This document shows, piece after piece, positions 3-3,881 of a stretch of DNA of 64,000 nucleotides. The stretch lies in contig JADLBC010000045.1 in the NCBI GenBank assembly GCA_020847985.1, positions 29,243 to 93,242 on the forward strand. The letters are read 5' to 3'. Position 1 is the stretch's first letter. The number at the start of each line of letters is the position of its first letter. The notes beneath the pieces were generated by a model. The model was not told the DNA's origin. It worked only from the letters and a program-made list of their open reading frames with translations, and made no database searches. Source of the DNA: Dehalococcoidia bacterium. GTDB taxonomy: Bacteria > Chloroflexota > Dehalococcoidia > Tepidiformales > Tepidiformaceae. A program made the position numbers and the translations under genes.

Positions 3-1001
3 GAAGCCACGGACGAACCGGCGCTCGAACGCTGGCGGGCCGGCTGGCTCGGCCGCCAGGACGGGCGCGTGACCCTCCTCCTGCGCGCTGTGCGCGAGCA
101 GCCGCCGGAGCAGCGCGCTGCCTTCGGCCAGGCGGCGAATGCGGTCAAGCAGACCCTCGAAGCCGCGCTCGCCGAACGCCAGGAGAGCCTGAAACAGGCG
201 GCCCTGAAAGCCCTTAGCACGACCGCCGCCCTGGACGTGACACTCCCCGGCCGGCCCCAGGCCATCGGCCGCCTCCACCCCGTTACCCAGACCCTCCGGG
301 ATTGCATCAAGGCGTTCCAGGAGATGGGTTTCCGCGTCGCCGAAGGCCCCGAAGTCGAATGGAGCGCCTACAACTTCGACGCCATGCGCAGTCCCGAGGA
401 CCACCCGGCGCGCGACATGTGGGACACGATCTGGGTCGATACGCTGCTCAACGGCGAACGGAAGATGCTCCTGCGGACGCACACTTCGCCGAACCAGGCC
501 CGCGTCATGGAGCGCACGCCCGAGCCGCCGGTGCGCGTCATCGTCCCCGGCAAGTGCTACCGCCAGGAGGCGACCGACGCCACCCACGAGTGGATGCTCA
601 CCCAGATCGAAGGTCTCGCCGTCGATGAAGGCGTGCGCATGAGTGACCTCAAGGGCGTCCTCTACGAATTCGCCCGCAAGATGTTCGGGCAGGACCGCAA
701 GGTCATCTTCCACCACAGCTACTTCCCCTTCGTGGAGCCGGGCGTCGAAATGGCCATGGACTGTTTCATCTGCCGGGGTTCCGGCGCCGAATGCCGCACC
801 TGCCACGGCACCGGCTGGATCGAAATCCTCGGCGCCGGCATGGTCCACCCCGAGATCATCGAAAACGCCGGCTACGATTCCTCGAAAGTCACCGGCTTCG
901 CCTTCGGCCTCGGCGTCGAGCGCGTCGCCCTCCTGCGCTGGGGCATCGAAGACATCCGCCACTTCTACGCGAACGACCTCCGCTTCCTGGGGCAGTTTTA
1001 G
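3..1001 (+). CDS. pheS: Phenylalanine--tRNA ligase alpha subunit, 5' end truncated by window edge
   Basis: Class II aaRS core (HPVTQTLRDCIKAFQEMGF, RTHTSPNQARVM, GLGVERVALLRWGIEDIRHFYANDLRFL). The frame stays open to the window edge (EATDEPALERWRAGWLGRQDGRV), so the true start is upstream. Confidence 0.97.
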   Translation, partial: EATDEPALERWRAGWLGRQDGRVTLLLRAVREQPPEQRAAFGQAANAVKQTLEAALAERQESLKQAALKALSTTAALDVTLPGRPQAIGRLHPVTQTLRDCIKAFQEMGFRVAEGPEVEWSAYNFDAMRSPEDHPARDMWDTIWVDTLLNGERKMLLRTHTSPNQARVMERTPEPPVRVIVPGKCYRQEATDATHEWMLTQIEGLAVDEGVRMSDLKGVLYEFARKMFGQDRKVIFHHSYFPFVEPGVEMAMDCFICRGSGAECRTCHGTGWIEILGAGMVHPEIIENAGYDSSKVTGFAFGLGVERVALLRWGIEDIRHFYANDLRFLGQF

Positions 1002-1003
1002 CC

Positions 1004-1455
1004 AGCTGTTAGCCGTTGGCTACTGGCCACTAGCGGGGCAACCCCGTCGCGCGACGGGACAGGAAAGAGGGTACCGGTGCGACCGTTCCAGGAACTGGTG
1101 GTCTGGCAGAAGGCGCACCAACTTGCGCTCGCCGTGTACCACGCTTCCGGTGGTTTCCCGACCGACGAGCGCTTCGGACTCACGAGCCAGGTACGCCGGT
1201 CCGCGGTCTCGATTCCCGCGAACATCGCCGAGGGGTCCGCACGCCCCGGGGAGACTGAATTCCGGCGATTCCTGGGGATCGCGCTCGGCTCAGCCACCGA
1301 ACTCGAATACCATCTGATCCTGTCGAAGGACCTGGGCTACATCTCGCACGAAACGCACGAGCGCCTCGACACCTCTCTGGCCGAAGTCAAGCGCATGCTC
1401 GTCTCCTTCATCCGCCGACTCCAGGTCGGACCCTAATAGCCAACAGCCAACAGCC
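1004..1455. repeat. Imperfect inverted repeat pair flanking the four-helix-bundle gene
   Basis: Left 1004-1022 agctgttagccgttggcta; its reverse complement tagccaacggctaacagct matches right 1437-1455 tagccaacagccaacagcc at 16/19 positions, the three mismatches all being transitions. Confidence 0.6.
1077..1436 (+). CDS. Four-helix-bundle protein (S23/IVP, Avd-like family)
   Basis: MRPFQELVVWQKAHQLALAVYHASGGFPTDERFGLTSQVRRSAVSIPANIAEGSAR...EFRRFLGIALGSATELEYHL is the typical signature of this family. Confidence 0.93.
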   Translation: MRPFQELVVWQKAHQLALAVYHASGGFPTDERFGLTSQVRRSAVSIPANIAEGSARPGETEFRRFLGIALGSATELEYHLILSKDLGYISHETHERLDTSLAEVKRMLVSFIRRLQVGP

Positions 1456-1466
1456 AGGAGCTTCTT

Positions 1467-3881
1467 GTGAAATTACTCCTCTCATGGTTGCGTGAATTCG
1501 TCGATGTCGACCTGCCTGTGCCCGAGCTTGCGCGGCGGTTGATCGATGCCACGGCGGAGGTCGAGGGCTGGGAGACCATCGGCGCGGGCTGGGACCCGGA
1601 GCGAATCCGCGTCGCACAGGTTGTGGCGGTCGAGCCCCACCCCAACGCCGACCGCCTGCGCCTTGCCACGGTTGAGACTGGCTCCGGCCTCCAGCAGGTC
1701 GTCTGCGGCGCGCCGAATATCGCGGCCGGCCAGAAGGTCGCCTTCGCCACCGAAGGCGCCGTGCTCATCGATGGCCACACTGGCGAAACCGCGAAGCTCA
1801 AGCTCCGCCCCATCCGCGGCGTCGAATCGGCGGGGATGGTCCTGAGCGAAAAGGAGCTCGGCCTCAGCGACAGCCACGAGGGCATCCTCGTGCTCCCGGA
1901 CGACGCCGTCGTAGGCCGCCCACTCGTCGAGCAGCTTGGGGATGTCCTCTTCGATATCTCCACCTGGGCGAACCGCGCCGACTTGCTCGGCGTGCTCGGC
2001 CTCGCGCGCGAAGTGTCCGCGCTCGTCTCGCGACCCCTGCGCGAACCCTCCACGGAGTACTCCGAAGCCGGCCCGCCCACGGAGTCGCTCGCCAGCGTCA
2101 CCGTGCAGGACCCGGACCTCTGCCCGCGCTTCATGGTGTCCGTGATCCAGGACGTCACGCTCGGCCCGTCGCCCGCGTGGATGCAGGAGCGGCTCCTGCG
2201 CCACGGCATGCGCCCCATCAACAACGTCGTCGACATCACCAACTACGTCATGATCGAGACCGGCCAGCCGCTGCACGCCTTCGATTACGACCTCGTGCGC
2301 GGCAAGCAGCTCATCGCGCGCCGCGCCGTCCCTGGCGAAAAGCTCGTCACCCTTGACGGCGTCGAGCGCGAATTCGATGGGCAGATGGTGCTCGTCTGCG
2401 ACGGCGAAGGCCCCGTGAGCGTGGCCGGCGTCATGGGCGGCGGCAACAGCGAGGTCAGCGAATCCACCCGCACCATCCTCCTCGAGGCCGCGAACTGGGT
2501 GCCCGGGAATATCCGCCGGACCTCCATGTACCTCAAGCTCCGCAGCGAGGCGAGCCTCCGGTTCGAAAAGGGGCTTGGCCCCGAAATGGCCGAGTTCGCA
2601 CTCAAGCGCGCCCTCCACCTCTTCGAACAGCTGACCGGCGGCACCGTCTCCCGGGGCGTGATCGATGTTTACCCGGGCAAGCGGCCGCCGCGCACCATCA
2701 TCCTCCCCGCCGCGCGCATCGAGCAGGTCCTCGGGTACGCCATCGGCCCCGACGAGGTTCGCCGCATCCTCAGTGACCTCGGCTTCCTCTGTCACCATCT
2801 CCCGCCCGATCGCTACAGCGTGCAGCCCCCGTACTGGCGGCCGGACGTGCTCATCGCCGACGACCTGATCGAGGACGTCGCCCGCATCCACGGGTACGAC
2901 AAGCTGCCCGCCACGAAGCTGCGCGGCAGCCTCCCAGAGCCCGAGCCGCGCCCCGTCGAGGACCTGCGCGAGCGCGTGCGCGATCTTGCCGTCGGCCTCG
3001 GGTTCCAGGAAATCATCACCTACAGCCTCACCGAGAAGCAGAAGCTGGAACGCGTCGTGGCGCCGGGAGATGTCCGTCGCATGGCGCCGTTGTCTGTCGT
3101 GAACCCGGTCGCGGCGCGGCACACCTACCTGCGCACCTCCCTCCGCGCGGGCCTGCTCGAAACTTACGCCGCGAATCGCCGGCAGCACGATGGCCCCCTG
3201 CGCATGTTCGAAGTGGGCCAGGAGTTCCTGCCCGTCGAGGCCGACCTCCCGCACGAACGGAAGGTGTTCTGCGCCCTCGCCGGCGGCACGCGCGAAGCTC
3301 GTTGGGCGAAAGCCGGGGACGATCGCCTCGACTTCTTCGACGCGAAGGGCGCCGCGGAAGCCGTGCTGGGCGCGCTCGGCGTCCCCGGCACCTTCGCCGC
3401 CGCGAACGAATTCGGCCTGCTCGAAGGGCACACGGCGCGGGTCGCCTCGGGCAAACAGCCCGTGGGCGTCGTCGCGCAGGTACACCCGGACACCGCCGCC
3501 GCCTTCGATATCGATGAGCCCGTCTTCATGGTCGAACTCTGGCTCGAGGACCTCGTGCGCGTGCTCCCCGAACGGCCCGCCTACCTCGCGCCCTCGCGCT
3601 TCCCCGAGATGCGCCACGACCTCGCCCTGCTGATCGACACGGCGACCCCGGCCGTCCGCCTCGTCGATATCGTGCGCTCCCACCGTTCCGGGACGGTCCG
3701 CATCACGGCCGATATTTTCGACGAGTATCGCGGCCGGGGCGTGCCCGAGGGCAAGAAGTCGCTCGCGGTCGCGGTTCGCTACCAGGCCGAGGACCGGACC
3801 CTCACCGACGAAGAGGTCGCCCGCATCGAAACCGGTTTGCTCAAGCGGCTGGAGAAGGAGCTGGGCGCCGTCCGACGCTAG
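1467..3881 (+). CDS. pheT: Phenylalanine--tRNA ligase beta subunit
   Basis: 804 aa; tRNA-binding N-terminus, B3/B4 and B5 domains (RPINNVVDITNYVMIETGQPLHAFDYD), C-terminal FDX-ACB domain. Confidence 0.97.
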   Translation: MKLLLSWLREFVDVDLPVPELARRLIDATAEVEGWETIGAGWDPERIRVAQVVAVEPHPNADRLRLATVETGSGLQQVVCGAPNIAAGQKVAFATEGAVLIDGHTGETAKLKLRPIRGVESAGMVLSEKELGLSDSHEGILVLPDDAVVGRPLVEQLGDVLFDISTWANRADLLGVLGLAREVSALVSRPLREPSTEYSEAGPPTESLASVTVQDPDLCPRFMVSVIQDVTLGPSPAWMQERLLRHGMRPINNVVDITNYVMIETGQPLHAFDYDLVRGKQLIARRAVPGEKLVTLDGVEREFDGQMVLVCDGEGPVSVAGVMGGGNSEVSESTRTILLEAANWVPGNIRRTSMYLKLRSEASLRFEKGLGPEMAEFALKRALHLFEQLTGGTVSRGVIDVYPGKRPPRTIILPAARIEQVLGYAIGPDEVRRILSDLGFLCHHLPPDRYSVQPPYWRPDVLIADDLIEDVARIHGYDKLPATKLRGSLPEPEPRPVEDLRERVRDLAVGLGFQEIITYSLTEKQKLERVVAPGDVRRMAPLSVVNPVAARHTYLRTSLRAGLLETYAANRRQHDGPLRMFEVGQEFLPVEADLPHERKVFCALAGGTREARWAKAGDDRLDFFDAKGAAEAVLGALGVPGTFAAANEFGLLEGHTARVASGKQPVGVVAQVHPDTAAAFDIDEPVFMVELWLEDLVRVLPERPAYLAPSRFPEMRHDLALLIDTATPAVRLVDIVRSHRSGTVRITADIFDEYRGRGVPEGKKSLAVAVRYQAEDRTLTDEEVARIETGLLKRLEKELGAVRR

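Follow-up and report, generated by a model that had tools for sequence, protein, structure and literature searches.

A small gene of the S23 family lies between pheS and pheT in the window (the whole 64,000-nucleotide stretch of Dehalococcoidia DNA analysed here), and the question it raises is what such a gene is doing inside a pair of phenylalanyl-tRNA synthetase genes, and whether the inverted repeats at its sides mark it as a mobile unit. PF05635 genes, present in a great many bacteria, bear annotations such as "S23 ribosomal protein" or "four helix bundle protein" and have no known function. The locus is laid out as follows.

69 to 1001, + strand: pheS, 3' part, the upstream host gene, starting 5' of the window (Pfam tRNA-synt_2d, 1.2e-93; stop codon TAG at 999-1001)
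1004 to 1034, + strand: left arm, heptamer RGCYRYT repeated about 4.4 times (AGCTGTT AGCCGTT GGCTACT GGCCACT AGC), read from the sequence; inverted match to the right arm 16/19, 0/1000 shuffles
1077 to 1436, + strand: S23/four-helix-bundle gene, 119 aa, GTG start (PF05635 1.3e-39; TIGR02436 1.6e-39; homology to solved structure 2gsc, 9.3e-21)
1438 to 1461, - strand: right arm, inverted array AGCCAAC AGCCAAC AGCCAGG AGC, read from the sequence; inverted match to the left arm
1467 to 3881, + strand: pheT, the downstream host gene, GTG start at 1467 (Pfam B3_4, B5, tRNA_synthFbeta, FDX-ACB)

Much of what the preliminary description had claimed for this locus is confirmed: an S23/Avd-like gene does split the pheS-pheT pair, and the imperfect inverted repeat around it begins beside the pheS stop codon and, with a right arm that starts at the S23 stop, overlaps the pheT ribosome-binding site. 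The protein scores 135.1 bits against PF05635 (cut-off 33.8) and 134.5 against TIGR02436 (cut-off 24), and two of its relatives have solved structures, 2gsc (XCC0516) and 2rld. The left repeat, AGCTGTTAGCCGTTGGCTA (1004-1022), and the right repeat, TAGCCAACAGCCAACAGCC (1437-1455), agree at 16 of 19 positions as reverse complements, the mismatches (A/G, A/G and C/T) all being transitions as had been stated, and none of 1000 dinucleotide shuffles of both intergenic flanks reached this score (shuffle maximum 14). The 19-bp repeat of short words is therefore real, and its description can be refined: read with a period of seven, it consists of two inverted arrays of one degenerate 7-bp word. The genome-wide search that had been proposed found the 19-mer, with at most three mismatches, at 51 places, against 16 for the reversed control, while PF05635 genes in this genome number only three; the repeat occurs elsewhere as inverted arrays, and with other words. 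An Rfam search of positions 900-1700 gave no match. A second S23 gene of the genome (L110, G000:C8:28536-28850) carries an in-frame TAG despite perfect GAGTGCT arms (25/25) and is a decaying gene inside intact arms.

The arms are part of the S23 unit, specific to each element, and change together. Among 71 distinct S23 genes from 38 genomes of the window's family, inverted short arrays flank nearly every gene, the word differing by element (GAGTGCT, GGGAGGA, TTTGGAT, GGGAACA, GATTCAC and others), and the best upstream/downstream inverted match averages 20.7, compared with 8.3 for swapped flanks and 10.2 for direct matches. The pattern extends to other S23 loci of the phylum (n = 29; own arms 14.4, swapped 8.1), to 25 gammaproteobacterial loci (17.9 and 8.2) and to 80 S23 elements from GTDB species of many phyla (16.4 and 7.6), 75 of which lie above the 95th percentile of the swaps; at some S23 loci the arm score is not above that of swapped flanks. 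Matched arms also occur on named cyanobacterial, Azospirillum and Riemerella plasmids, reaching 25/25 around the S23 gene between cas6 and cas4 in Anabaena sp. 90. Arrays of period 7 are present in 52 of 160 S23 flanks, against 6 of 300 control stretches from the same loci, and just two further periods in the range 4 to 14, namely 8 and 14 (twice 7), turned up more than once in the flanks; words of 8 instead of 7 bp occupy both arms at three loci (L117, L120 and L121; for example, AGGCGTAA). The elements are placed between host genes, often directly 3' of a stop codon. One fixed 19-bp transposon end was rejected as a description, because the word varies between elements.

The S23 gene and its word move jointly between phyla. 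When pairs of S23 loci without any common neighbouring gene were compared, word agreement rose from about 3.7 of 7 positions at low protein identity to 5.0 in the 60-70% band and 6.2 among the 27 pairs with at least 70% identity, whereas agreement with the complementary word stayed at 3.3-4.2. Identical words accompany proteins of about 72% identity in different phyla, as in Victivallales (L215) and Nostoc (L302) or Opitutaceae (L211) and Gammaproteobacteria (L350), and likewise in an unclassified MAG (L212) and Aulosira (L301). For S23 proteins less than 60% identical, word agreement is near background, so that we only infer that S23 recognises its word.

Units of this kind also insert. On plasmids of Nostocales, the empty site of Nostoc linckia and Aulosira (L310, L311) reads AAAAA-GTAAT-TAACAAAT, whereas the filled site of Trichormus ATCC 29413 and Scytonema (L304, L312), on plasmids about 98% identical to the empty ones, reads AAAAA-GTAAT-(AAATCAG...S23...TTCTTCTTT)-GTAAT-TAACAAAT. 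In these two filled/empty pairs GTAAT, single at the empty site, stands on each side of the insert as a clean target duplication of 5 bp that the arms delimit, and the host stop codon is kept. The words in the two arms of the Trichormus plasmid element are TCAGAAT and GTCAGGA. It is the one clean duplication among four sites, two others being compatible: a second site has TTCTA on both sides (L303 compared with L316), of which TTCT is possibly array sequence, and a third, occupied by a different S23 with a GGGAAAA-type word, has TAATG/TTATG (4/5). At the fourth (L301) a few host bases were lost and no duplication is seen, and L313 is a decayed copy. An S23 unit related to that of the window thus inserts, and units are also lost. 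Further cyanobacterial plasmid elements (L307, L386, L385) sit inside CRISPR operons, between cas6 and cas4 in Anabaena sp. 90 and Pseudanabaena galeata and between cas10 and cmr3 in Picosynechococcus PCC 7003; the cas6/cas4 site, compared between Anabaena and Dolichospermum, holds unrelated inserts in both alleles. PF05635 has been seen in cas loci before (PMC3936711), and insertion may be the reason why 23S_rRNA_IVP was earlier reported as associated with cas genes.

Element-specific words and the evidence for mobility together support a mobile cassette, in which the 19-mer of the window is only one word of a large vocabulary. We consider it probable that positions 1004-1461 are one of a widespread set of S23 mobile elements, with S23 as a putative word-recognising, trans-acting factor and another enzyme doing the chemistry. 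Such an element would comprise one four-helix-bundle (S23/PF05635) gene between inverted arrays of a 7-bp, rarely 8-bp, word. S23 would recognise, in DNA or in RNA, the arrays that carry the heptamer of its lineage, and would act in trans on its own element and on S23-less hairpins, as RAYT does for its REPINs, with cutting and joining perhaps carried out by some host or trans-acting nuclease, integrase or reverse transcriptase. The element between pheS and pheT would have taken up its position early in the history of the family, leaving both genes intact, and would since have been mostly inherited and sometimes lost or replaced. That the S23 element encodes no enzyme counts against this explanation. 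More tentatively, and with somewhat less than even confidence, we suggest that S23 elements could be a new mobile kind without a known transposase, in which a ring-forming protein that co-evolves with its word mobilises its own gene and the gene-less hairpins, a scheme that would explain the heptamers of Xanthomonas, Nostoc and others as well as the intervening sequences (IVSs) of rRNA.

A serious rival, which is compatible with the mobile-element reading, is an RNA-regulatory role. Here the arms would be an RNA device, S23 binding the word in its own leader or transcript stem and thereby regulating itself and the array-bearing genes, with mobility occasional and passive; TRAP, a ring-shaped protein that binds GAG/UAG repeats, would provide the model. 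Upstream arms do favour one strand (of 121 words, 85 contain AG and 41 contain CT), and one might speculate that such a bias would suit a ring of subunits that recognises a single strand, whether of RNA or of DNA. The arms also change together at a fixed site. Across relatives, the words between pheS and pheT run from AGCTGTT via GGCTGTT, GGCCGTT, GGCTGTC and AGCTGCC to AGTCGTT, and orthologous elements score 17.9 with their own arms compared with 10.0 with the arms of their orthologs (0 of 10,000 permutations), which points to selection on pairing or to the copying of one arm from the other. The two arms of the pheS-pheT element pair with each other in the predicted RNA fold, and arrays lie between co-directional genes and beside ribosome-binding sites. 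Against an RNA device stand the folding of the whole transcript, which is not above that of shuffles (z -0.9), the arm-delimited target duplication that accompanies insertion of a related unit, and the entry of gene and arms into unrelated neighbourhoods across phyla. On balance we regard it as an unlikely account of the arms.

The mobile-element reading, in which S23 would serve gene-less hairpins in trans, bears on the scattered arrays that carry the same words. A genome with a given S23 word holds tens of S23-less arrays of that word, variable in copy number and far more numerous than S23 genes. We searched the 38 family genomes for three tandem copies, with at most two mismatches, of GAGTGCT, GATTCAC and GGCTGTT; hits overlap inside an array, so that the counts represent units and not arrays. 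GAGTGCT gave 121 hits in the window's own genome (G000), 110 in G001, 36 in G002, 32 in G012, 13 in G017, 11 in G016 and 3 in G004, and zero in the other 31. GATTCAC gave 78 in G004, 37 in G017 and 26 in G008, with fewer in six others and zero in the rest, and GGCTGTT gave 118 in G017, 25 in G012 and 21 in G035, with lower counts beyond these; reversed-word controls for all three gave zero or nearly zero. It is the genomes whose S23 has the word that are rich in it, in five of six cases for GAGTGCT (Fisher 7e-5) and three of three for GATTCAC (1e-4), under thresholds set post hoc with the counts already seen; some word-rich genomes have no S23 with the matching word (G016 for GAGTGCT, G028 for GGCTGTT). 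In ten genomes without PF05635 the three words are absent or nearly so, the exception being G028 with 8 GGCTGTT hits. Several S23-less arrays form inverted pairs about 40-150 bp apart, and on the Nostoc N6 plasmid pNPM1 (L319:930-1150) an S23 gene is interrupted by an S23-less heptamer hairpin of its own element's word, with a spacer of about 100 bp of unrelated sequence and an ambiguous target duplication.

The many-fold excess of S23-less arrays over S23 genes, and their variable copy number, would also be expected if heptamer arrays were independent mobile or slippage-prone host repeats and S23 genes were trapped between two of them without a role. This we find improbable: both arms share a word, inverted, in practically all lineages sampled, the word tracks the protein clade across phyla in the absence of common neighbours, and genomes without PF05635 are nearly devoid of the three tested words. 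Two further features of the window's own genome may be recorded here, namely a perfect 12-unit GAGTGCT array without S23 (L266, G000:C3:183241-183324) and compound repeats in which GGGAACC/T arrays and a GGCAACCCCG motif directly adjoin several GAGTGCT arrays (L261, L262, L265, L268, L277).

The element between pheS and pheT is old; it has been mostly inherited vertically, lost several times and, in one genus, replaced at least once. Empty sites were looked for among relatives, and found: the pheS-pheT gap is 3-16 nt in most empty genomes and 447-511 nt in filled ones, and neither the gene nor its repeat behaves as a fixture of this site, the gene being missing from many relatives and the repeat present elsewhere. 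On the PheT tree the filled state requires 8-9 changes. S23 is absent from this junction in all class outgroup genomes, some of which carry different DNA at that point, and this indicates that the element arrived within the family. S23 copies at the site form nearly one clade (support 99/95), so that the copy in the window is mostly inherited and not a recent insertion. The proposal of a small mobile unit that spares host ORFs accordingly holds for the kind of element, given the related plasmid element with its 5-bp duplication and intact host ORF, and does not hold for a recent arrival at this locus. In a filled and an empty genome whose pheS DNA is 97.8% identical (G031 and G025), no target duplication is readable at the pheS-pheT junction, the window's own site being old. 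In another genome (G033, L040) the left array alone remains, as a scar, and one copy of the pheS-pheT clade lies elsewhere (L062) in a genome whose pheS-pheT site is empty (G024). Two members of genus g8 (G008 and G030) have PheS proteins that are 97.7% identical and S23 proteins at the same site that are only 53.6% identical, with different words, a mismatch that shows either a second occupation of the site or a replacement of the element. Values of dN/dS between 0.03 and 0.23 in nine of ten S23 pairs indicate purifying selection, the tenth pair (L304/L312) being near-identical and uninformative. A conserved operon gene for PheRS expression, with chance repeats and no mobility, would fit the near-single clade and the purifying selection but is refuted by the many empty sites and the replacement, to which the scar, the outgroup sites without S23 and the non-chance arms add, and we give it almost no credence. 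A second pheT of G001, 49% identical and on a small contig (L061, G001:C97:13500-16200), is possibly MAG contamination.

Several known systems resemble the S23 elements in part. The IVS of Coxiella burnetii contains an S23p ORF preceded by three GACAGAT heptamers, which vary between strains, and has inverted repeats at its termini (PMC4990558); PF05635 is also found in rRNA insertions of CPR bacteria (PMC11270868). The window element is similarly short, encodes the same protein family and has terminal inverted repeats (16/19) that would form a stem around the S23 ORF. It differs in lying between two protein genes and not in rRNA, and in arms that are arrays of a lineage-specific word; a scan of 60 related S23 loci found no rRNA. 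To our knowledge, neither target duplications nor S23-less populations have been described for IVSs. RAYT genes with their REP/REPIN sequences share the flanking inverted short sequences and the many gene-less hairpins with the same ends, whereas S23 lacks a Y1/HUH domain: Y1 models did not match the window's S23. A RAYT as mobiliser was rejected, as the window's own genome has none (no match to PF01797) and heptamer arms are absent from four Y1_Tnp loci in relatives. Two Y1_Tnp (RAYT-like) genes, in G017 and G006 (L392, L393), are flanked by long ordinary inverted repeats (scores 41 and 26), not heptamers, and are apparently genuine RAYT/REP loci of this family. Avd of diversity-generating retroelements has a homologous fold and a weak sequence match, yet the window's S23 (NF033474 1.8e-5, 25 bits against a cut-off of 80; phrog_3206 3e-9) falls below the Avd cut-off and its immediate neighbours are pheS and pheT. 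PADLOC defence profiles gave no match, nor did phage records searched with one S23 query.

Intergenic period-7 arrays are known from elsewhere. In Xanthomonas campestris 186 arrays of GGGAATC are on record, inverted pairs accounting for 70 cases, their positions vary by species, and Nostoc is similar (PMC4692102); heptanucleotide hairpins occur in P6b of the Nostoc trnL intron (PMC3488679) and TAACTGA heptamer repeats in Beggiatoaceae (PMC4679880). The arrays described here resemble these repeats and STRRs, but the papers on Xanthomonas, Nostoc and Beggiatoaceae draw no connection to S23 genes, and a search of the openly searchable literature found none linking S23 to heptamer repeats in general. 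One locus bears on the Xanthomonas word: an S23 gene 60% identical to XCC0516 (L344) has CGGGAATC arms. MITEs, too, are short, with inverted ends, no transposase inside and a target duplication, such as was read at the related Nostocales plasmid element, whereas S23 elements encode a conserved protein under purifying selection and end in tandem arrays with a word for each lineage. Since the tests for membership of the IVS, RAYT and Avd groups failed, we file S23 elements as a variant next to IVS elements; they are possibly a kind of their own.

Period-7 repeats have long been a puzzle in the genomes of cyanobacteria, xanthomonads and others. The matched, lineage-specific word ties them and the S23 genes into one system, in which binding of S23 to its word, and a part for it in moving or regulating the dispersed hairpins, become testable. 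The S23 elements are probably a widespread and formerly unconnected class of bacterial mobile DNA with mirror-image heptamer ends, which would explain why S23 genes are found inside operons such as pheST, cas genes and conjugation genes without belonging to them.
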